Assembly: GCA_018398765.1 (NCBI GenBank)
Contig: JAHBMJ010002127.1
Location: forward strand, 1 to 22,497
Source: Chromera velia
Taxonomy: Eukaryota > Sar > Chromeraceae
DNA: 22,497 bases
Direction: 5' to 3'
A program made the position numbers and the translations under genes. The notes beneath the pieces are model-generated. The model did no database searches, was not told the origin of the DNA, and worked only from the letters and a program-made list of their open reading frames with translations. This document shows, one piece after another, positions 643 to 20,761 of the stretch (its first letter is position 1; the number at the start of each line of letters is the position of its first letter).

Positions 643-650
643 TGGAGATG
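643..650. repeat. left 8-bp target-site duplication of the hAT element
   Basis: TGGAGATG lies directly before the CAGGG end. Its partner TGGAGATA is at 2098-2105, directly after the CCCTG end. The copies differ at one base. Confidence 0.75.
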
Positions 651-855
651 CAGGGTTATTAAGTACCATGCCTTTCGGTAGTAGTACTTCAGTACTTTAG
701 GGGGGGGTGGTTCCGTTTTTTGGTCTAGTTTTCGGTACCGGTCCTTTCGGTACTTTGAAACTTTTGCTTAAGCTGGGCTTTGTAACGTAAAAATGAGTGG
801 ATTCTAGGTTTTTTCACTAAAAATAAGCGTAACTAAAGCTAGTAAGTTTGGATTC

Positions 856-888
<33 letters not shown>

Positions 889-2097
889 TTAGGGTTTCGT
901 GAATATAATAATATAAATTTAATATAATATAATATATTATCTATATAACCTAGAGAGCTAGTCTCTTAGAGAGTATAATCGACAAAAAAAACTACAGAAT
1001 TGATGAAAAAAAAAGTATAGACTAGAGTTTATATTATACCTAGATAAAATAAATTGATTAGGTTATCTAACCGTTATCACATAGATACCATTGGTAGGGA
1101 GGTTGAACGATTCAAACAATTTTCAGCGTAGTGTCACGTTTAATAAAAGGAATTTCATTCTTAGAAATTATGGTCCAACCAGCGAGTGGTTCCATAACAT
1201 TGTGTGAAGGGAGTGCATTGTACTCCAAAAGCCTGGCGTATGTCAAAATATTTTGTAAATTGAAATCTTCTATCCATTCTTCAGCATGGGGGACTTTAAA
1301 ACGCATGAAGTGACTGTCTTCTTCGTCTGTTTGCTCGTGGGGGCAGCATAAAATAGTTGCTTTGACCTTTGTATTTTCTTCGCTGTGCATGACAGGAGAA
1401 AAAATTCGCTGTCCAGATGGGGTATGGATTGACTGAATTTGTCCGAGATCAATAAGATTCTATCTAGGATTCTGTTCTCCATCATCTAGGATTTTGGGAG
1501 GCTTGGGGGGTTCTAGGGGGGGTTATGGGAGTAAGAAGATTTATAGAATAAGTTTCAGACTAGGTTTTAGACAAAAACATGTAAAAATTGTAGTAAAAAC
1601 CTGACCGTTTCATTAGAAATATAATATAATATAATATAATATATAATGTAGAATATTGTTCATAATTAAGTTTATATTATATTATATTAAATTATATTAT
1701 ACTAGGATTTTGTCTGAAATATAAACTCTAAGAGAGGAATATATTGAATCCAGGCCTAGGACTAAAGTTCAATTTTATTTATCACGCTGCACGGGCCTGC
1801 TCGACTTTATTTCGCTTACCGCCGGTCCGGTGCCAGGCCCGCCATAGCTGCTTTTTTAGAGCTTTGACTCTAAAACAGCGGCAACAACCACTTTTCCACA
1901 TCATGTTAAGATGATCATGCTTACCTAGAAGTAGCAGTCTAAGGCCTTATCTTATAAAATTTTTGCTGGCGACGAAAGCACCAAAAAAGTACCGAAAGCA
2001 CCGAAAAAAAAAGAAAACGGGGGTCAGTTATGGTCGGTTCCATTTTCTGGTTACACATAAATTCGGTACTTACAGTTGTCGGTGATTAACAACCCTG
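651..2097. mobile_element. hAT-family DNA transposon, probably non-autonomous
   Basis: The 1447-bp block begins CAGGGTTATTAA (651-662) and ends TTAACAACCCTG (2086-2097). These are inverted repeats matching at 11 of 12 bases. It is flanked by TGGAGATG (643-650) and TGGAGATA (2098-2105), a 7-of-8 match to a direct repeat. An 8-bp target duplication together with CAGGG ends is the standard signature of hAT elements. Inside both ends are copies of a TTTCGGTAC-type word: 672-679, 731-739 and 744-752 on the plus strand, and inverted copies around 1988-1998 and 2072-2079. They resemble subterminal transposase-binding repeats. The interior is AT-rich except for one GC-richer island (about 1080-1470). 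I see no hAT transposase (no zinc-finger BED domain or hAT dimerisation domain), so it would need a transposase supplied elsewhere. The single mismatch in the target duplication suggests it is not very recent. Confidence 0.8.
1112..1459 (-). pseudogene. unidentified open frame inside the hAT element
   Basis: The minus-strand frame is open for 116 codons between an in-frame TAG (1460-1462) and a TGA (1112-1114). The first ATG is at 1390, giving 92 residues, but the sequence before it (a segment with LGQIQSIHTPSGQ) has the same protein-like composition, so the start may be missing. The product is mixed-charge and soluble-looking, with a Cys-Cys-Pro-His segment and a segment EEWIEDFNLQNILTYARLL that would form helices. 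It sits in the only GC-richer island of the AT-rich element, which argues for former coding. I do not recognise the family. It is not an obvious hAT transposase domain; it could be the tail of a gene captured by the element or a fragment of another transposon nested in it. Confidence 0.35.
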
Positions 2098-2105
2098 TGG
2101 AGATA
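2098..2105. repeat. right 8-bp target-site duplication of the hAT element
   Basis: TGGAGATA follows the right inverted end at 2097 and pairs with 643-650. Confidence 0.75.
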
Positions 2106-2931
2106 CCTTGGAGTTTAATATCTATGGAGTTATGGAGATAAGAACCATAGGATCTAAATATGAAAGCCGTATGAAGCTCCAAACTATAGTCTAAACCAGA
2201 ATCCAGATATTATTTGGAGAAGTTTCAGGAGAACTTATATTATAAATAATCTATGAGTTAAATTACTACTAAAAAGATTTAAGAAGGTTTTATCTAGTAT
2301 GCTATAGCGCTGGCTACTAGATAAACTAAACATATATTGATTTAACATATTTTAAAGTTACACTCTGTTTAAAGTTATTTCATGTTTTCAAAAAACAATC
2401 AACATTTGGTCCTAGATTTGGTCCGTTTTCTAGTCCGTTTTGTACAGATCGAGACAGGGAGAAAGCCAGCACTAGCTAGACAGAAGCCTTCAACAAATCA
2501 TTCGAATTATCACTTTGGTATTTTTGTTGTTCAAGGGCCAGAATCAAGGCCGCATCGAGAAAGGTACACCTCCAAAAATTCAGAGCCAAACAAAAACACA
2601 TTTAAAATGTCTGCTCCTGAGGGAACAAGAGGCGACAAGAGGCCCTCCACTCCGTTGGACACCAAATGCAGTCTTCTTTGGTTCACACATGCCCTATTTT
2701 ACGCCTCGTCTCGATCACCCACACGTCAATTATCGGCTAACAATCCTCACAGGCCCCTTCCGAGGGGCTCCCCAGCCTTTTGCTTTTCATGACATTCAAA
2801 TCCCTCTCATCACTGCTTACTTGCACACTTTCCGCCTCTTACCATGCCAAAACGTTACTCGCTCCCCGTAATGTACCTCAAGCTTCACCTGGAAGGTCTG
2901 CCCTCAGGCATCCAAAAGCCGAACGAATGAA
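2106..2931. other. intergenic, no supported gene
   Basis: AT-rich up to about 2380, then more balanced. An open frame at 2382-2792 on the plus strand gives 136 residues rich in Ser, Pro, Arg and Asn with no motif, and an overlapping frame at 2515-2871 is no better. Neither reads like a protein family. The stretch probably includes the 3' untranslated region of the minus-strand ankyrin gene, though I see no clear polyadenylation signal for it. Confidence 0.5.
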
Positions 2932-4044
2932 CTACACAACATCTTCCATCTCGCGTCGCAGTCCTTTCGCGAAAGTCAGGGCCTTCTCTTCCTCAGAAGA
3001 ACTCGCACGGATGCACGCACCTGCTGAAAGGAGCAGCCTCACAACAGCTCTGTGAGACCAAGTGCGACCACGATGCGAGGCGACCATCAGTGCAGTGTTC
3101 CCTCTCGCATCCACCGCTTCCACGTTTGCTCCGGCCTCAAGGAGGATCTCCACAACACCCACCTGCCCTTCTTCAGCTGCCATGATCAACGCCGACCGCC
3201 CCTTCCCATTGCGCCAAGAGGGCTCAGGATTGTCTTCATTCCGAGCCTCCACGTCTGCCCCCCACTCGACGAGGGTCCTCACGGCATCGCAGTGCCCCCT
3301 CACGGAGGCCCACATCAACGCTGTGGCCCCCTGTGAGTCCCTCCTGTTCACGTCGGCGCCGAACGACAGCAGCGCTCGCAGGGCAGGCACAGAACCCTCC
3401 CTCGCAGCCAGGTGAAGTGCAGCTTCGCGCTCCGTGTGCAAACGAACAGGACTATTGTACTTGAAGCAACATGCTAGGCACCACACGGAAATCAAAACAA
3501 GATAAAAACAGAACACAAGCGGTACTAAAACGAGGATCTTGAAGACACACCGCATGCTGTCAAAACAGAGACTGGATCTCTCGAAGACTCTAAAGCAAAA
3601 CTTCAAGGGGTTGTCGTCCAACTCGCAGAACATGCCGGGATCAGATTTCAAGTCAGGTCGGTTTTCAACGTACACCAGTCCGTTAACATCAGCACCGCAC
3701 ACTCGAAGCAGAAGGAAGAGATCCCCTTTGAGGTTAGGCGCACCCCCACAAAACATCCATGGGGCCCAACGGGTTTTGTTGATAAACGTATCTATCCTCT
3801 TCCGCAGCATGTGTGCTGACATCCGGGTGAAACTTCGCGTATTCCTCACCATCATTTGCGTCAGAGTGAAGGGACGGCTCCGTCTGGCAGATGCACATAC
3901 ACCCTCTCCTCTCTGCCCCCTTCCGGATTCGCTCCCTCTTCCCACCTCTGCATCTCTTCCACCCCGGACAACCAACAGCCTGCCTTGAAGGTCTCCTCCA
4001 TCAGTTTCGGAAGGGCGGACCAAGAAAGAAAACAAACCGCCCAT
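2932..4044 (-). CDS. ankyrin-repeat protein with a possible membrane segment
   Basis: The open frame gives 370 residues. From about residue 204 there are ankyrin repeats in register: residues 207-237 (ALHLAAREG, ALLSFGADVN), 240-270 (TALMWASVRGH, LVEWGADVEA), 284-314 (SALIMAAEEGQ, ILLEAGANVEA) and 317-350 (TALMVASHRGR, LLLSAGA). An isolated half-repeat with LLLRVCGADVNG lies at about residues 108-122. Ankyrin repeats bind other proteins; the partner is unknown. Residues 167-193 are strongly hydrophobic and could be one membrane helix. They could also be a translated intron, because a GTGTGTC-type donor (3550) and AG acceptor (3430) flank this stretch, though that exact pair would shift frame. 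Residues 10-60 are Arg/Gly-rich low complexity, and another frame there (to 4067) looks equally coding-like, so the N-terminal 90 residues are uncertain. The ATG at 4044 has a good context (CACAATGG). It is divergent from the gene at 4564. Confidence 0.75.
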   Translation of the reverse strand: MGGLFSFLVRPSETDGGDLQGRLLVVRGGRDAEVGRGSESGRGQRGEGVCASARRSRPFTLTQMMVRNTRSFTRMSAHMLRKRIDTFINKTRWAPWMFCGGAPNLKGDLFLLLRVCGADVNGLVYVENRPDLKSDPGMFCELDDNPLKFCFRVFERSSLCFDSMRCVFKILVLVPLVFCFYLVLISVWCLACCFKYNSPVRLHTEREAALHLAAREGSVPALRALLSFGADVNRRDSQGATALMWASVRGHCDAVRTLVEWGADVEARNEDNPEPSWRNGKGRSALIMAAEEGQVGVVEILLEAGANVEAVDARGNTALMVASHRGRTWSHRAVVRLLLSAGACIRASSSEEEKALTFAKGLRREMEDVV

Positions 4045-4563
4045 TGTGATGGAACCAAGTATGCCAAGTGATCGAAGCCTTTTGGTCTAGAGGCTTTGAG
4101 TGCAGTTTGGAGAGGTTTCAGGATTCCGCAGTGGTCACAGAAGATCTGCGACGGTGATGGTCTGTTCGGGAGCAGTGTCAGAAGTAGTCAGAAGAAGAGG
4201 AAGATCATTCCTTGACGAGACCGATCGAAAGCCCGGCGCCGTCTCCAGTTCTCCAACACGGAGACGGCCATAGACGGCCGGAGACGGCGGAGACGGCACG
4301 GATTTTCCGGGCCGTGGTTTGTCAGAGAATGTTTGAGAGGATTTGAGAGGTGCTTCGAAAATTCAAGTCATTTGATCATGTCAGCTTCATGAAACAGCTA
4401 GTCTGTAATTCACTCACTTGTATTGATCCCTCAAATTAACCTCGATATCTTCTGCTGCTTCTTGTGAAGACAGAGCGAAAACGGGTGCGATCAACCATTT
4501 GAGTCCCTGCCTTTTGCTTTTTTCCTTCTTTGAGAAATTCATGTACGTTGCCGTGAGGTCAAG
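4045..4563. promoter_or_regulatory. 519-bp divergent intergenic region
   Basis: It lies between the start codons of two outward-facing genes (4044 minus and 4564 plus), so it should hold both promoters. The clearest structure is a GC-rich cluster at 4238-4297: GGAGACGGC at 4260-4268, 4280-4288 and 4289-4297, a TAGACGGC variant at 4271, and the inverted copy GCCGTCTCC at 4238-4246. The inverted copy could pair with any of the forward copies. Whether it is a binding site or a chance local repeat is unknown. I see no TATA box. Confidence 0.45.
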
Positions 4564-5553
4564 ATGGCGCAATCTGGAATTGTCAACGTTCCTGACACGT
4601 CGCAAACGGCTTATGTTCAGATAAAAGAGAGGATGGACGAGCAGCAAAAGACCATCGCAGAAATGCAAAGATCGCTGTTGTGTCTTCTGAAACTCTTCAG
4701 AGATGTAGGACAGTCAGAGAGTCTAGTGCGGTCCCTGAATCCAGATCTGCTCACTGACGGAGGGGCAGGCAGTGCACCTCCACGTGATGTGCTGATGGAA
4801 CTACAGACACTGAGAAAAGAGAGGTCTGAGAGGGCCCGTCATGTGCTCTTTTCCGTTTACCTGCCTCATTTGCGGGTCGTGAGGTCACGTTTTGAGGAGA
4901 AGAAGAAAGAAGTGGCAGCACTGGTGGCAAGCTGGTCGTCTGCGCACGCTGCAAAGAAAACTAGGGCTAAATGGTTGGGGTCCTTGACAAAAGACGAGAA
5001 GATCTTGTGGAAATTCATTGAGAAGGACGTGAAAGACGCTGCTAAGGAAGACTCCCAAGAATTTAACGAAAGGAGGAGAGCGTCTTCTGAAGGTGCTGCA
5101 TGGACTCAAACAGATCAGGGCATTCAAGTCATTTGGGAGCATGGGCTTCCTTCACTTTGGGCCCTTTTCTTTTTGAGATCACCGAATCCGTCTCTGCTTG
5201 CAACGTGGCTGATGCTGCCCGTGTTGCTTTTGAGACCCGGATACTACGCATCGCAGGGGAGGAATTATTTCAACTCTCGAGAGAAGCCATTTGACGGGAC
5301 TCTTCCCAACGTGAGGCTCCTCGCACCGGTCGACTCGGAGTTCCTCTCCAGACGCCGCGATGTTCTCCGTGTGCTGTGGAAGGTTGCAATGGGAAATCCC
5401 CGAATTCCCGGGGTGAGAATGCTGTGCCAGTGGATGGTGACGGCATCCCATGTGGGAGACTGGGAGACGGTGGGGTGGATTTCATCGTTCTTGACAGAGA
5501 AAGAAGGCTTGTCCTCTGCGTTGTGGGTGGCTAGGCACATTGAGGGTGGGTAG
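4564..5553 (+). CDS. 5' part of a disrupted gene; unknown protein with N-terminal coiled coil
   Basis: The open frame gives 329 residues and begins in a good context (AAGATGG). Residues about 18-48 (QIKERMDEQQKTIAEMQRSL and on) have heptad spacing typical of a coiled coil. Residues 80-130 are Lys/Glu/Arg-rich helix, and 185-225 are hydrophobic (LWALFFLRSPN, LMLPVLLLRPG) without a clear membrane span. I do not recognise a family. The frame ends at TAG 5551-5553, exactly inside a 19-bp tandem duplication (5525-5543 and 5544-5562). Reading past it with one copy discounted moves the frame to the one that stays coding-like to 7033. This ORF is therefore probably the 5' two-fifths of one longer gene, broken in this allele or assembly, rather than a complete gene. 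Confidence 0.6.
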   Translation: MAQSGIVNVPDTSQTAYVQIKERMDEQQKTIAEMQRSLLCLLKLFRDVGQSESLVRSLNPDLLTDGGAGSAPPRDVLMELQTLRKERSERARHVLFSVYLPHLRVVRSRFEEKKKEVAALVASWSSAHAAKKTRAKWLGSLTKDEKILWKFIEKDVKDAAKEDSQEFNERRRASSEGAAWTQTDQGIQVIWEHGLPSLWALFFLRSPNPSLLATWLMLPVLLLRPGYYASQGRNYFNSREKPFDGTLPNVRLLAPVDSEFLSRRRDVLRVLWKVAMGNPRIPGVRMLCQWMVTASHVGDWETVGWISSFLTEKEGLSSALWVARHIEGG

Positions 5554-13638: not shown

Positions 13639-15100
13639 ACAGCGATTGCTAAACATCCTACAGTTTAGGGAATTTATTCAATCTACTGTGCATTCTAAAA
13701 ATTAGTATTTCTAATTATGAGTCTAATATGACTATAGCTAATATGATGTTTGAATATATGAGATCTTATGCTCACAGTGAATAATACTGCAACATAGGCT
13801 CATATACTTTGGTTTAGAAAGCGTGTAGGCTGCGTACCAGCTTTGTTCTAAAACTAAAAAATTAATGAATGAATGAATGAATGAAGTTGGCTTTGCTAGA
13901 GTGGAACCGTGCTCCCAGCAGCCCATGTTCATGCAAGAGATCGTCAATCACTCAACTTTAGAGATAAGGCTAAGCGCGAGATCCCCTGAAGTGCTCGCTT
14001 GGTGAGCTCACGAGCAGTATGCGCGTTGGAGGTGGCAATAGAAGACTCGAACAGAAGAAGAAAAGGTCGCGTTCACACAGAAACAGGCGTGCACAGTGAG
14101 TAACAAAGATCACAAACGGCTCTGCATGCTTCATACGGATCGACTTGTAAAGCCAAAAGCAGCATCTTCCTCGCTTCTGTTTCGGCTGCATCCGATCCCT
14201 CAATTCCTTCTCTCTGAATCCTTTGCTTCACTTTCTTTCCCTCTACCACTTTATTTAGTTTATTTCTTGTTTCTACCCAATTGGAGCATACTGAAAGCCG
14301 GTGCCAGAGATCATCAATTTTTCTTCTATTTGAACAACCCTCTGCCAGACAAAACAGCGATTGCTAAACATCCTACAGTTTAGGAATTTATTCAATCTAC
14401 TGTGCATTCTAAAAATTAGTATTTCTAATTATGAGTCTAATATGACTATAGCTAATATGATGTTTGAATATATGAGATCTTATGCTCACAGTGAATAATA
14501 CTGCAACATAGGCTCATATACTTTGGTTTAGAAAGCGTGTAGGCTGCGTACCAGCTTTGTTCTAAAACTAAAAAATTAATGAATGAATGAATGAATGAAG
14601 TTGGCTTTGCTAGAGTGGAACCGTGCTCCCAGCAGCCCATGTTCATGCAAGAGATCGTCAATCACTCAACTTTAGAGATAAAGCTAAGCGCGAGATCCCC
14701 TGAAGTGCTTGCTTGGTGAGCTCACGAGCAGCATACGCGTTGGAAGTGGCAATAGAAGACTCGAACAGAAGAAGAAAAGGTCGCGTTCACACAGAAACAG
14801 GCGTGCACAGTGAGTAATAAAGATCACAAACGGCTCTGCATGCTTCATACGGATCGACTTGTAAAGCCAAAAGCAGCATCTTCCTCGCTTCTGTTTTGGC
14901 TGCATCCGATCCCTCAATTCCTTCTCTCTAAATCCTTTGCTTCACTTTCTTTCCCTCTACTACTTTGTTTGGTTTATTTCTTATTTCTACCCAATTGGAG
15001 CATACTGAAAGCCGGTGCCAGAGATCATCAATTTTTCTTCTATTTGAACAACCCTCTGCCAGACAAAACAGCGATTGCTAAACATCCTACAGTTTAGGAA
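13639..15100. repeat. 714-bp tandem duplication with a 33-bp closing partial copy
   Basis: Unit 1 is 13639-14353 (715 bp) and unit 2 is 14354-15067 (714 bp). The first 33 bases of the unit recur at 15068-15100, so the order is short repeat, interior, short repeat, interior, short repeat. The short repeat contains CTAAAC and GTTTAG as inverted arms around 8 bases. By eye the copies differ at about twelve positions plus one G in a short G run (TAGGG versus TAGG). Each unit contains an (AATG)n tract (13863-13883 and its copy). The small open frames in the units (for example 13738-13947 minus, repeated identically at 14452-14661) have no motif and I do not call them genes. Confidence 0.9.
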
Positions 15101-15285: not shown

Positions 15286-16470
15286 TTAATTTCTTGTAAT
15301 ACGTGCTTCGGCTTCCCTGCAACTCCGTCTTTGTTGCTCTGTCTCAGCGGCCTCGGTTTTTCCTCTTGCCTTCCGCTGCGCCTCCTCGCACACAGCCTCC
15401 GTCGTGTGGGCAAAGAGCGCCAAGGCCCGACTCGCCAACACCCACTTCGCAGATCTTGGTACCATGCCTTCCTCAAACTCTCTGAAAGCCGTGCGGATAC
15501 CTGACTGACACCCCTCAACGAAATCCGGCAGAATCCCCTCACCCCCATCTGACTCCATCCGACAGTGGAAAGCCAGGCATGCAGACAATTCGCGTGCGTC
15601 AAGGAGAGCATTATTCGCTCCCTGTCCCTTGAAAGGCGTCATCGGGTGTGCGGCGTCTCCCATGAACGTGCAGAGGCCCCCCAGGGCACGCGAAGCTTCC
15701 TCAAAAACGGAAGAGTTCAGAGGCTCCCGGTCGAACAGATACCCGACCTGCGACATGCATGCAGGGAACGTGATGGGTGCGTAAGTGGCCCACATTCACA
15801 CACCCACATTCACACACCCACATTCACACACCCACATTCACACATTCACACATTCACACAGCCATACATGCAGACAAAGAAAGACAATTTCACACACACA
15901 GGCACGTTATCTCTCTCCCTTTCCCTCTCCCTCTCTCTCTCATTCACTGCCACACACACACACACACACACAAGCACACAGCGTCACACAGAGCAGGCGC
16001 GTCACGCACCAACATACACACATCAATTCGCACGTCATTTGTTGCTCAGGTTCTTTCCAGGCTTTTTTGGAATGCACTTCTCTCCCCACCCACCCACCCA
16101 CCCACCCGCATGTCTGAGGTCTCCGTCGATGCGATCAGGGAGAGCACAGGCTCTGGCCACTGTCGGACGATCGAGAGGGCATCCTCCTTCGCTTTCTTCC
16201 TTACACAGGAACCCGAAGAAGAAGACTGGGACTCCGCGACTAGTGCTGCGGCTGCCGTCTCTGCGCCCTTCGTGTCCATCTCCACTTTGTGTGTGAGTTG
16301 CCACATAATTCTGCGGCTGTCGAAGGGCTTCGTGAAGATGCGAGCTCCCTTCCCGTCCACGCACTCAAGAACTCTCTGCTGCACAAGCGCGTGTCCGTTC
16401 TCGCAGATCCCGTTGATCATTCGGAGTCCGGAGAACACCAGGGGATCCCCTATCTGTTCACAGGCAGGCA

Positions 16471-16509
<39 letters not shown>

Positions 16510-16661
16510 ACCCACACACACACATACATACATACATGCATACATACATACACGCATACACACATACATACATACACAAACGCACGCACACACGTGTATA
16601 TATACATAGTTACACGCACATGCACGCACACGCATGCATCCATACCTGTACACAAGCATAA

Positions 16662-16711
<50 letters not shown>

Positions 16712-16743
16712 GAGAGAGACAGAGTATGAAAGAAAAAGAAAAA

Positions 16744-16775
<32 letters not shown>

Positions 16776-16810
16776 CAAAGAAACGAAGAAAGAAAGAAAG
16801 AAAGAAAGCG

Positions 16811-16847
<37 letters not shown>

Positions 16848-16973
16848 CAAAGAAACAAAGAAACAAAGAAAGAAACAAAGAAACAAAGAAACAAAGAAAC
16901 AAAGAAAGAAAGAAAGAAAGAAAGAAAAAAGGAAAGAACGAAAGAACGAAAAAACGAAAGAAAGAACGAACGA

Positions 16974-17033
<60 letters not shown>

Positions 17034-17053
17034 ACGAAAGAAAAAAAGAAAAA

Positions 17054-17089
<36 letters not shown>

Positions 17090-18121
17090 ACGAAAGAAGA
17101 AGAGAAAGCATTGACAAAATGATACGGCAAGGAGAATTCTGAGGGAGCACCCATCGCAAATTTGTGTCTCGTCTGCCTTATCTTCCATGGAAGGAAGGAA
17201 GGAAGGAAGGAAGGAAGGAAGGAAGGAAGGAAGGAAGGAAGGAAGGAAGGAAGGAAAGGAGGAAGAAAAGAAGGAAGAAAGGAAGGAAGGAAGGAAGGAA
17301 GGAAAGAAGGAACTGTTTGTCTTCTTCCTTCCTTACCATCGTTCTCTCTTGTCATTCAGCAAGAAAGTTCACGAAGCTGGGGATCAGACTGACTGGGTGC
17401 ATTTTCCTAACGATGAAACCTCGACAGAGGCATCCCGAAGAATGAAATCGAAGCAGGTGAATAGACCGCATACAAGGAAAGCCAATTACAACGACTGCAC
17501 ACGGATGCTCACCAATTTCCGCCGTGCGAGTGAGTTCAAACCGTCTACGAAGACCACCGCGCCCGCCACCACGGATGTTCGTCCTCCGTGCTCATCCTGT
17601 TCCTCCTCCTCCCCTTTTTCTTGGGTCTTCACAAAATTCAAACGAACACCGTCACCATTCCTTCCGTCTCCTTTCACGAACTCCATACTCTCGAGACTGC
17701 ACCCCCAGTGCACCACGGCACCTCCCCCCTCCTCTCCCACGACAGCATCATGCAGAATCTTCCGAAGCACCTCTCGAGGAAGTGCAAAGTTGCCCCTCTT
17801 CCGAAGAGGGTCCACCCGCTTTCCAGGCAGAACCCCCCCATGGAAAACAACACCGCCGTCACCCGCACGCAAAGTAGTGTACCCAGCAGACGGCACTCCC
17901 GCCTCTCTGCACTGGCGATCCAGCCCCATCTCCTTCAAGTATGCCCCCCCTTCTTGTTCCTGCATGGTCAAGCTGTACCCTCGATACCTCGACAGAATAG
18001 GATCCCGCTCGAACAAGTGCACTCTACCCTTCCACAGACCCAAACGAGACAAACTCAAGGCAAGAGCCCAGCCACCCACGCCGCCCCCCACAATCACAAA
18101 CGGGGCCTTGCTTCCCTCCAT
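15286..18121 (-). CDS. FAD-dependent monooxygenase, three exons
   Basis: Exons 18121-17513, 16453-16106 and 15747-15286 join in phase 0 at both junctions to give 472 residues, in the usual size range of flavoprotein aromatic-type monooxygenases. Residues 9-17 (VIVGGGVGG) are the GxGxxG dinucleotide-binding loop, and Glu38 in LFERD is the acidic residue expected to bind the ribose. LPREVLRKIL is the conserved Arg-containing helix of the family, residues 193-196 are the DGLN motif, and residues 349-354 (GDAAHP) contact FAD, followed by PFKGQGANNAL. Exon 2 ends ASTETSDMR and exon 3 opens VGYLFDREPL, matching the family's usual order before GDAAH, which strongly supports this junction. Donors are GTGAGC (17512) and GTGGGT (16105); acceptors end GAACAG (16454) and TCGCAG (15748). 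An Ala/Ser/Lys-rich insert lies at about residues 258-295. The family oxidises small aromatic or isoprenoid substrates with NAD(P)H and O2; the substrate here cannot be told. Confidence 0.88.
15788..15975. repeat. CA-rich minisatellite in intron 2 of the monooxygenase gene
   Basis: A 14-bp unit of the type CACATTCACACACC repeats from about 15791 to 15865, followed by a TCTC-rich tract (15909-15941) and a (CA)n run (15951-15972). All lie in the intron spanning 15748-16105. Confidence 0.85.
16084..16107 (-). repeat. G-tract repeat over the exon 2 donor site
   Basis: On the minus (sense) strand this is six G-tracts of three or four separated by single T bases. The exon 2/intron 2 border (16106/16105) falls inside the first tract, with donor GTGGGT. 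Single-base-loop G3 repeats form very stable parallel quadruplexes. Confidence 0.85.
16471..16560. repeat. (AC)n and (ATAC)n microsatellite in intron 1
   Basis: An (AC)n run of about 18 units begins at 16471, just upstream of the exon 2 acceptor in the sense direction, and passes into CATA/CATG-type tetranucleotides to about 16580. Confidence 0.9.
16663..17312. repeat. polypurine microsatellite tract: (GA)n, (GAAA)n/(CAAA)n, (GGAA)n
   Basis: (GA)n at about 16667-16709 is followed by (GAAA)n with interspersed CAAA and CGAA units (about 16735-17099) and, after a 90-bp unique spacer, (GGAA)n at about 17189-17311. The whole lies in intron 1 (16454-17512) of the minus-strand monooxygenase, so the transcript carries it as a long UUUC/UUCC pyrimidine tract. 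The long Phe/Leu/Ser or Lys/Glu/Arg open frames here are by-products of the repeat. Confidence 0.95.
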
Positions 18122-18793: not shown

Positions 18794-20761
18794 ATGGATA
18801 CAGTCCTTCCCCCTATGCAGGAGGAAAGTCAAGCTGGTGCAGGTGCGGGGGGCGGGGGGAGTTTGGTTTCTTTGGAGGAGGACAGAGAAGTGGTAGACAG
18901 TTCTATGGAGAGACAGGAGGGTGCTGCTCTCATGCATCCCCTCGTTGTCGGTGACGGTGCAGGGGAGAAGGGGGTGTTCGAGAGACAGTCAGACCTTGAT
19001 GAGCTGCTGGGTGAGTATTCAGACGGGGAGGCAAGAAGCGAAGGCAACGAAGTAGAAGAAGACGAGAAGGAAGAAAAGGATGAGAAGGAAGAAAAGGATG
19101 AAAAGGAAGAAAAGGATGAGAAGGAAGAAAAGTATGAGAAAGAAGAAGAGTATGAGGAGGAAGAAATGTATGAGAAGGAAGAAAAGGATGAGAAGGAAGA
19201 AAAGTATGAGAAAGAAGAAGAGTGTGAGGAAGAAGAAGAGTATGAAGAGGAGGATGAAGGCGATGTGATAGAGGAATTGTTCGGAGACCGACAGCTGAAC
19301 AGGAGGAGGTCGAATGGGCAGTTGCAACAGCTGCGGCACGAGCAGGTGGGGGGGGAAGGCGCCGCCGCCTGTCTAGGACGATGTTGTGTGAGCACGGCCT
19401 CCAGATCAGGGAGTGCGATGAATGCGGAGCCAGCAAGAAAGCCGGCAAGTGCGAACATGGCCGGAACCGCTGGGGCTGCAAAGAGTGCGGGGGCGGAGGA
19501 ATCTGTGAACACAACCGCGTCCGTTACAATTGCAAGGAATGCAAAGGTGGGGGTATATGTGCGCACGGTCGGATTCGTGGCAACTGCAAAGAATGCGGGG
19601 GGGGGGGGTGTCTGCGAGCACAACCGCTACCGTTTTTACTGCAAAGAGTGTGGAGGGAAGGGTATATGCGAGCACGGCCGTCAACGGTATCACTGTACAC
19701 ACTGTGGAAACGCTCAGAAATTGAAATGCGAGCACGGTCGCAGGAAAGATAGATGCAAGGAGTGCGGAGGAAAGGGTCTCTGCCCCCATGGCCGAGTCAA
19801 GTGTAGGTGCAAGGAGTGTGGTGGTGCGAACATATGTGAGCATGGCCGTCAGCGTTACAAATGCAGAGAGTGCGGGGGAAAAGGAATCTGCAAGCACAAT
19901 ACCCGAAAAGACAGATGTAAGGAGTGTGGTGGTAGTTCACTTTGCGAGCACGGCCGAACTCGCTTCTATTGCAGAGAGTGTAGGGGGCGCAGGATTTGTG
20001 AGCATGGCACCGAGCGTCACCTTTGTGCAACGTGTCGAAATCTGCCTTTAGGGTTGCACAAAAAGAAGTCAGACCCGTGCGAGCACGGACGGAAACGCAA
20101 AGACGATTGCAAGATTTGCTGGGGGCTCAAAACGTGCAAACACGGCAGCTTGTGCCGTGAATGCACCGAGTGCGTTCCGAAGTTTTGCGAGCACGGCCGG
20201 GAACGCCGTGACTGCACTTTTTGTGGTGACAGCATTAACATCTGCGAGCACGGCACGAGACGGCGTCAATGCAAGGAGTGCAGGAACGCGACCCAGTGTA
20301 AGCACAAGCAAATCCGTTCACAGTGTGAGGATTGCAGAGAGACTGGGAAGGTATCGAAAAAGAAAAGGGGAAATTCAAAGCCACAGTCTGTAAAAAAGCA
20401 AAAACGAATTCCAGAGGAAGAGGGAGAGGAAGAGGAAGAGGAAAATCTGGCAAAGCGACAAGAAAAAAAGCGAAAAGTGAAAGCCCTTGAAGAGAATTGG
20501 AGTGGACACGCCGCGCAGAAAAGTCGCCGTCTGCCAAAGCCCAACTCTGAGCACACAACAGCCACAGCAGTGGAAGAACCCCTCACCCCCGGCACCTCTT
20601 TTGAAGAGGGCCTGCTCAGCGTCACTCACGGCAACGAGGGCTTGGCAGGGTTCCTTCCTAGTGACAGCGAGGTCACATGCAAGCATGGTCTTCCTCGCGT
20701 AGACTGTGCAGATGGAGGATGCAGATGCAAAAGCACCGAAGCACCCGGAACCCTCAAATAA
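18794..20761 (+). CDS. acidic protein with a C-x-H-x6-C-x2-C repeat array (CxHG repeats)
   Basis: The single open frame gives 655 residues. Residues 1-85 are Gly/Glu/Ser-rich, about 86-156 are tandem acidic Glu/Lys units, and 273-514 are 13 repeats of about 18 residues of type CEHGRQRYKCRECGGKG. A basic nuclear-localisation-like stretch (KKKRG, KKQKR) lies near 521-540, and a last CKHG motif near 628. Cys and His spacing suggests one zinc per repeat. Such repeats occur in protist and large-DNA-virus proteins of unknown function. Residues about 188-272 lack Cys repeats because the repeat frame there is +1-shifted: 19381-19608 in another frame encodes four more perfect repeats. The frame returns at a 12-G run (19597-19608), where 11 G would give the regular spacing; the first switch lies near the 8-G run at 19348-19355. 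Either the assembly has two compensating homopolymer errors or the locus is frame-disrupted. The start follows a divergent promoter region. Neighbours give no functional hint. Confidence 0.8.
   Translation: MDTVLPPMQEESQAGAGAGGGGSLVSLEEDREVVDSSMERQEGAALMHPLVVGDGAGEKGVFERQSDLDELLGEYSDGEARSEGNEVEEDEKEEKDEKEEKDEKEEKDEKEEKYEKEEEYEEEEMYEKEEKDEKEEKYEKEEECEEEEEYEEEDEGDVIEELFGDRQLNRRRSNGQLQQLRHEQVGGEGAAACLGRCCVSTASRSGSAMNAEPARKPASANMAGTAGAAKSAGAEESVNTTASVTIARNAKVGVYVRTVGFVATAKNAGGGGVCEHNRYRFYCKECGGKGICEHGRQRYHCTHCGNAQKLKCEHGRRKDRCKECGGKGLCPHGRVKCRCKECGGANICEHGRQRYKCRECGGKGICKHNTRKDRCKECGGSSLCEHGRTRFYCRECRGRRICEHGTERHLCATCRNLPLGLHKKKSDPCEHGRKRKDDCKICWGLKTCKHGSLCRECTECVPKFCEHGRERRDCTFCGDSINICEHGTRRRQCKECRNATQCKHKQIRSQCEDCRETGKVSKKKRGNSKPQSVKKQKRIPEEEGEEEEEENLAKRQEKKRKVKALEENWSGHAAQKSRRLPKPNSEHTTATAVEEPLTPGTSFEEGLLSVTHGNEGLAGFLPSDSEVTCKHGLPRVDCADGGCRCKSTEAPGTLK
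19048..19260 (+). repeat. tandem acidic coding repeat
   Basis: Units of about 15-18 bases of the type GATGAGAAGGAAGAAAAG repeat about a dozen times, coding DEKEEK- and YEKEEE-like blocks. The sense strand is almost all purine. Confidence 0.85.
19387..20335 (+). repeat. array of about 17 CxHG zinc-type repeats (54-nt unit)
   Basis: Four units are read in the frame starting at 19381 and thirteen in the main frame after 19608. The core is Cys-x-His-x6-Cys-x2-Cys with 5 residues before the next unit, an 18-residue (54-nt) period. Later units drift, for example CKHGSLCRECTEC and CEHGRKRKDDCKIC. Confidence 0.9.

Follow-up and report, generated by a model that had tools for sequence, protein, structure and literature searches.

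The usual view of non-autonomous DNA transposons is that they are empty passengers. There are transposons, however, whose cargo includes a protein other than transposase: in the available text of two reports (PMC5735166; PMC10398659) VANDAL transposons are described as encoding VANC anti-silencing proteins, and in that of the first VANC21 is described as binding short motifs in the non-coding parts of its own family. Here we describe an insertion in the genome of Chromera velia that compares with both situations. A conserved protein family that is not a recognisable transposase is carried by small elements from at least three families, and purifying selection is seen in family A, where alone a test was possible. 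The DNA analysed (the window) is a stretch of 22,497 nucleotides; numbers of the type L009 denote loci fetched from the same genome (177.8 Mb in 4040 contigs).

Results

An outer element of the CAGGGTT family

The outer element is an ordinary non-autonomous hAT-type element of a CAGGGTT family, occupying 651..2097 of the window (1447 bp counting the element nested within it). Its ends are short inverted repeats, CAGGGTTATTAA at 651..662 on the plus strand and TTAACAACCCTG at 2086..2097 on the minus strand, and their CAGGG fits YARNG, the consensus of hAT ends. An 8-bp target-site duplication flanks the element, with TGGAGATG at 643..650 and TGGAGATA at 2098..2105 matching at seven of eight positions. 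Inside the ends lie subterminal words: TTTCGGTA at 673, 730 and 745 in the left arm (673..753, plus strand), and TTCGGTAC at 1989 (reverse) and 2062 (forward) in the right arm (1989..2069). Words of this type lie in the two arms, and a scan of the whole window found TTCGGTAC absent from the remainder.

Inside the window alone this evidence is weak, since four pairs of ends with a duplication were counted there and 0-3 in each of 20 shuffled windows. The element is settled as real by copies elsewhere in the genome that share its ends and duplications. Genome-wide, 41 occurrences of a 17-base end pattern were counted (two of them in the window), as against zero for the reversed control. A DNA search of the genome gave at least 77 matches, the window's own included, a lower bound drawn from the 40 of 117 candidates that were scored. 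Twelve of the 37 related places that were fetched combine the two ends, each with no more than one mismatch, with a duplication matching at 7/8 or better, and at L011, L013, L016, L028 and L040 the 8-bp duplication is perfect. These 12 copies are 437-711 bp long, except L025 at 974 bp. The other 25 places show no clear end pair or a poorer duplication (5/8 at L009; 6/8 at L020 and L030). The hAT dimerisation family PF05699 (Dimer_Tnp_hAT) was found at seven places in the genome and at none in the window; because the window holds no such match, we class the outer element only as non-autonomous.

A first-pass annotation of the window had proposed a hAT-type insertion on the strength of the inverted CAGGGTT ends, the 7/8 duplication and the recurring words inside both ends, had recognised no hAT transposase in the interior, and had suggested searching the genome for further copies with the same ends and duplications of their own. 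Each of these points is borne out by the results above. The annotation had also likened the words to transposase-binding sites, and for that role they are candidates.

A second element nested within the first

The insertion in the window is two elements, one nested in the other, and not one. In the DNA search, sister outer copies match the window at 651-838 and at about 1761-2098, leaving the middle unmatched. That middle has ends of its own: a 921-bp element (family C; 839..1759) has CTAGTAAGTTTGGATTC as its left end (839..855, plus strand) and GAATCCAGGCCTAG as its right end (1746..1759, minus strand; also given as CTAGGCCTGGATTC, read on the strand opposite to CTAGTAAGTTTGGATTC), and is flanked by an 8-bp duplication, AACTAAAG at 831..838 and GACTAAAG at 1760..1767, matching at 7/8. 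The uninterrupted site, with a single AACTAAAG, is visible in the outer copies L011 and L013 and, with one change, in L010; 16 outer-family copies were aligned for this comparison, and among the rows listed the stretch is altered or missing in the others. A single element with a captured gene was therefore rejected, given that sister copies match only up to 838 and from 1761, and that the site is unoccupied in L011 and L013. The first-pass annotation had left the interior as either captured host sequence or a nested element. The nested element stands, with its own ends, its 8-bp duplication and its empty sites, and captured host sequence finds no support in the loci examined: the 21 relatives of the interior's protein that were fetched lie in family A, family B or L063, with no parent gene among them.

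The length of its duplication makes the inner element hAT-like, and we call it hAT-like only, because its CTAG ends do not fit YARNG. AT-rich AATATAAT repeats, which were picked without a shuffle control and whose positions were converted from element coordinates, lie inside the left end at 902, 921 and 926 (902..933) and inside the right end on both strands (1618..1698). No outer ends were found near the family C relatives L012 and L031.

Two further loci show CTAGG elements within outer copies. L023 holds a different one at another site, with the duplication TTTTGACG/TTTTGAGG, and L010 and L013 display the corresponding empty site, TTTTGACT. In L009 (C2034), where the outer duplication is the poor one noted above, a 2667-bp CTAGG-type element (860-3526) occupies the same AACTAAAG site as the window's inner element, save that an additional T stands on one side; the arms that the two share are short and AT-rich. 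Either a single insertion was carried along in a composite, or a hotspot was hit twice; the L009 element could have arisen in either way. Its 268-aa frame had no credible match in the families searched.

The open frame of the inner element belongs to a protein family

The minus strand of the inner element is open at 1112..1459 for 115 codons plus a stop, in a GC-richer island (39% for the frame versus 31% for the inner element), much as the annotation had described it. The frame runs from 1459 to 1115 and stops at 1112-1114; a TAG immediately precedes it, and no ATG occurs before codon 24. Its length alone is only mildly unusual, since runs this long turned up in 7 of 1000 shuffles when the inner element was shuffled and in 14 of 1000 for the island (1081-1500). 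The DNA search, with 40 of 117 candidates scored, found no match elsewhere for 1027-1596.

Searches of Pfam, NCBIfam, PHROGs and PDB with the product gave nothing credible. In Pfam the window's member stayed under every cut-off, and the best of 15 members reached E 0.058. One pattern run against viral contigs gave 43 matches, none of them a relative, and a single-sequence structure model of the window protein alone (mean pLDDT 34.6) is meaningless. Relatives were found in the same genome, where a protein search returned 27 other matches down to E 10, the best at 2.3e-4. We fetched 20 regions holding 21 of these matches (the six left out had E 0.135 to 3.2), and 13 of the regions fall in DNA repeat family A, six in family B and one (L063) in neither. 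Among the window's 520 frames, and with profile columns from an alignment that included the window, a profile of family A only finds the window frame at 2.2e-12 and one of family B only at 7.2e-10, the best reversed control being 0.34.

Identity to the window's domain is 24-33%, across three element families with different ends. Invariant positions in the 15 aligned members, some of which are partial, include W62, E64, F66, Y80, G94 and K100, and the sole invariant acid is one glutamate. Basic runs stand upstream of the domain in A and B copies, a sequence feature that suggests a nuclear protein. L063 (3633-4007, minus strand) holds a diverged version of the domain, the fourth kind of relative, which is interrupted by one stop codon; no element ends were found there. 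The window's own copy of the gene is probably a relic, since a stop lies directly upstream and the domain is absent from the fetched stretches of the family C relatives L012, L023 and L031. The protein family is without known relative, and we found no description of it in the literature searched: the titles and abstract openings covered, which leave most subscription journals outside, contain no hAT-like elements with this protein.

Small CTAGG-ended elements carry the family

Clear ends with 8-bp duplications are present in 11 of the 19 family A and B loci, seven of them with 8/8 duplications; L061 is ambiguous, and seven loci have no clear pair. Family A ends in CTAGGGTTGGACACTAAAG, with duplications of 8/8 at L066, L068, L071, L072 and L080 and of 7/8 at L074, L076 and L078, and family B in CTAGGCATGGTTTATAC, with 8/8 at L062 and L067 and 7/8 at L065. 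The 11 clear loci measure 0.7 to 2.2 kb, mostly 1 to 1.4 kb, except L072, which holds an insert. L067 is probably a recent copy, because its ends match at 20 of 20 positions, its duplication is 8/8 and it has a 192-codon open stretch; no transposase was recognised in it. A family-specific word, picked by eye and without a shuffle control, lies near both ends of the elements looked at (two of family A, two of family B, and the window's family C and outer elements): TTAAAGTT in A, ACATACAT in B, AATATAAT in C and TTCGGTAC in the outer element. Stray single words also occur, ACATACAT once inside one A copy and TTCGGTAC once inside another.

Copies of A and B vary through internal deletions and insertions with different breakpoints. 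L065, the longest family B element (2.17 kb), has an acidic 242-aa frame at 4158-4883 on the plus strand, opposite the conserved domain, and L080 (1.6 kb) has an acidic 165-aa open frame; neither had a credible family match. As these longer copies carry other open frames, the conserved protein may represent just one component of some larger master element. DNA matching the C-terminal part of the 242-aa frame persists in the left arms of L062 and L064, and partly in that of L073. The 3.3-kb L072 was considered as a long autonomous A copy and rejected, its extra 2.2 kb being an insert with a flanking duplication of about 12 bp.

The seven places in the genome with PF05699 are L046-L052. L050-L052 have CATAGTTGCC ends, with an 8-bp duplication in L052 (CCTTAATT, 8/8) and L051 (7/8). 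L046, L048 and L049 have boundaries that appear to be of the CTAGG type, with no visible duplication. A profile search of these loci (1.7 to 3.2 kb per locus) did not find the window's domain, and among the stretches examined there was no transposase locus with the ends of the inner element.

Selection on the gene

The dN/dS comparison used ten open stretches of family A, including four short ones of only 78-95 codons; L070, L076 and L080 (broken frames) and the second copy in L077 were omitted. In all 24 pairs between subfamilies dN/dS is 0.06-0.29, at dS 0.32-0.82. Within subfamilies it is 0.25 to 3.05 in the more recent one (15 pairs) and 0.18 to 0.48 in the other (6 pairs). Most changes fall at third codon positions in five of five overlapping pairs (p <= 0.0012), pairs that share copies and are not independent. 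The family A gene was kept under purifying selection during diversification, and a gene used in active copies and then decaying in dead ones would look like this. Between subfamilies, third positions differ by about 22-29% and the 3' non-coding flanks by only 12-14%. Because third positions exceed the divergence of the flanks, drift combined with selection on the protein is no simple explanation, and constraint on the flanks or exchange between subfamilies may lie behind the mismatch. Family B adds little (10 pairs, dN/dS 0.18-0.83, dS <=0.18).

Other features of the window

Adjoining the nested elements, at 2935-4044 on the minus strand, is an ankyrin-repeat protein (Pfam Ank, 2.4e-29). Further along, a 300-base direct repeat of 100% identity (13669-13968 and 14383-14682, spaced 714 bases apart) is followed by near-identical frames beyond each copy (14096-14383 and 14810-15097); together they look like a recent segmental duplication. 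Two FAD_binding_3 pieces lie on the minus strand within 15289-18121, one above the cut-off (15289-15795) and one below it (17489-18121), and are probably exons of one FAD monooxygenase gene with about 1.7 kb of simple-repeat-rich DNA between them. A 655-aa frame on the plus strand (18794-20758) contains an acidic KEEKDE run and, after it, a long series of CEHGRxRxxCKECGG-type repeats, and no domain in it exceeds the Pfam cut-off.

Discussion

Taken together, the results make it probable that the locus is a nested pair of non-autonomous elements and that the gene carried by the inner element belongs to a family under selection. We propose the following course of events. The outer CAGGGTT element would have been moved in trans by a transposase not its own, entering through an 8-bp staggered cut at the target; the duplications of the sister copies show this insertion step. 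An inner CTAG-ended, hAT-like element later inserted at AACTAAAG within it, as the empty sites of sister copies show, and brought an open frame encoding a domain about 115 aa long, whose protein family at least two other CTAGG-ended families carry. The protein would be a transposon-encoded accessory and not the catalytic transposase; most likely it would be a nuclear DNA-binding or regulatory protein, acting on the ends of its own family or on host silencing, and catalysis would be supplied by a hAT transposase elsewhere in the genome. This accessory role we put forward tentatively, as a suggestion with somewhat less than an even chance. It could be extended to a division of labour in which tiny TIR families without transposase each keep a diverged DNA-binding or anti-silencing protein for their own end words, while the hAT transposase comes from separate elements and selection maintains the cargo gene; in that full form we regard the proposal as rather unlikely.

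Alternatively, the small elements might be internal-deletion products of a larger autonomous element, with the domain being an exon of its spliced transposase or a second gene. We consider this possible, though at less than even odds. Such an origin would agree with the varied breakpoints by which A and B copies differ and with the extra open frames retained in the 2.17-kb L065 and the 1.6-kb L080. However, the transposase loci L046-L052, each covered over 1.7 to 3.2 kb, gave no match to the domain profile, the scanned proteins of A, B, C and L009 contain no Pfam transposase domain, L072 reaches 3.3 kb solely through its insert with the duplication of about 12 bp, and even the probably recent L067 is without a recognisable transposase.

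It is improbable that the frames are fragments of host genes captured by hAT-type elements and spread along with them, in the manner of Pack-TYPE transposons. The available text of PMC8903248 does describe hAT elements as able to carry gene pieces, and the unmatched frames of L065, L080 and L009 could be captures of this sort. The domain itself, by contrast, is found in three element families whose ends differ, with 24-33% identity to the window's; the 21 fetched matches include no parent host gene (six others, E 0.135 to 3.2, having been left out); and between the A subfamilies, which share their non-coding parts, the gene shows purifying selection.

A purely fortuitous open run in old element DNA that codes for nothing, as the length of the frame (equalled in 7/1000 inner-element shuffles) and the unmatched stretch at 1027-1596 (40 of 117 candidates scored) might allow, is rejected as extremely improbable on the A-only and B-only profile matches (2.2e-12 and 7.2e-10, versus 0.34 for the best reversed control).

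Comparison with known systems

A nested pair of non-autonomous elements, the inner one with a gene of a selected family, can be set beside three described systems. With hAT non-autonomous elements and MITEs (relatives of Ac/Ds, Tol2 and hobo) the locus shares the 8-bp duplication, short inverted ends, subterminal words and the lack of a transposase of its own, and the CAGGG end of the outer element fits YARNG. What sets it apart is the inner element, whose ends are CTAG and whose conserved frame is not recognisable as a transposase.

Pack-TYPE and Pack-hAT elements, so far as the available text of PMC8903248 describes them, are likewise non-autonomous TIR elements with internal coding DNA. Unlike what that text describes, the matches examined here include no parent host gene, and one protein family recurs under different ends, with purifying selection in family A.

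In the VANDAL/VANC system, as presented in the available text of the reports cited at the outset, there is likewise a transposon-borne family of non-transposase proteins that diversifies alongside the transposon families. According to the same text, VANDALs have in addition a transposase of their own, VANA, and DUF1985 is part of VANC; here no Pfam family rose over its cut-off, either for the window member or among the 15 members (best E 0.058), and a VANC of the DUF1985 type was thus not found. VANC is the closest working analogy for the putative accessory protein, as an analogy only, the two having no Pfam family in common. If the protein aids movement or escape from silencing, the accessory proteins of Arabidopsis VANDALs would have a counterpart in it, and this, if true, would go some way towards explaining how elements can compete when they lack a transposase.
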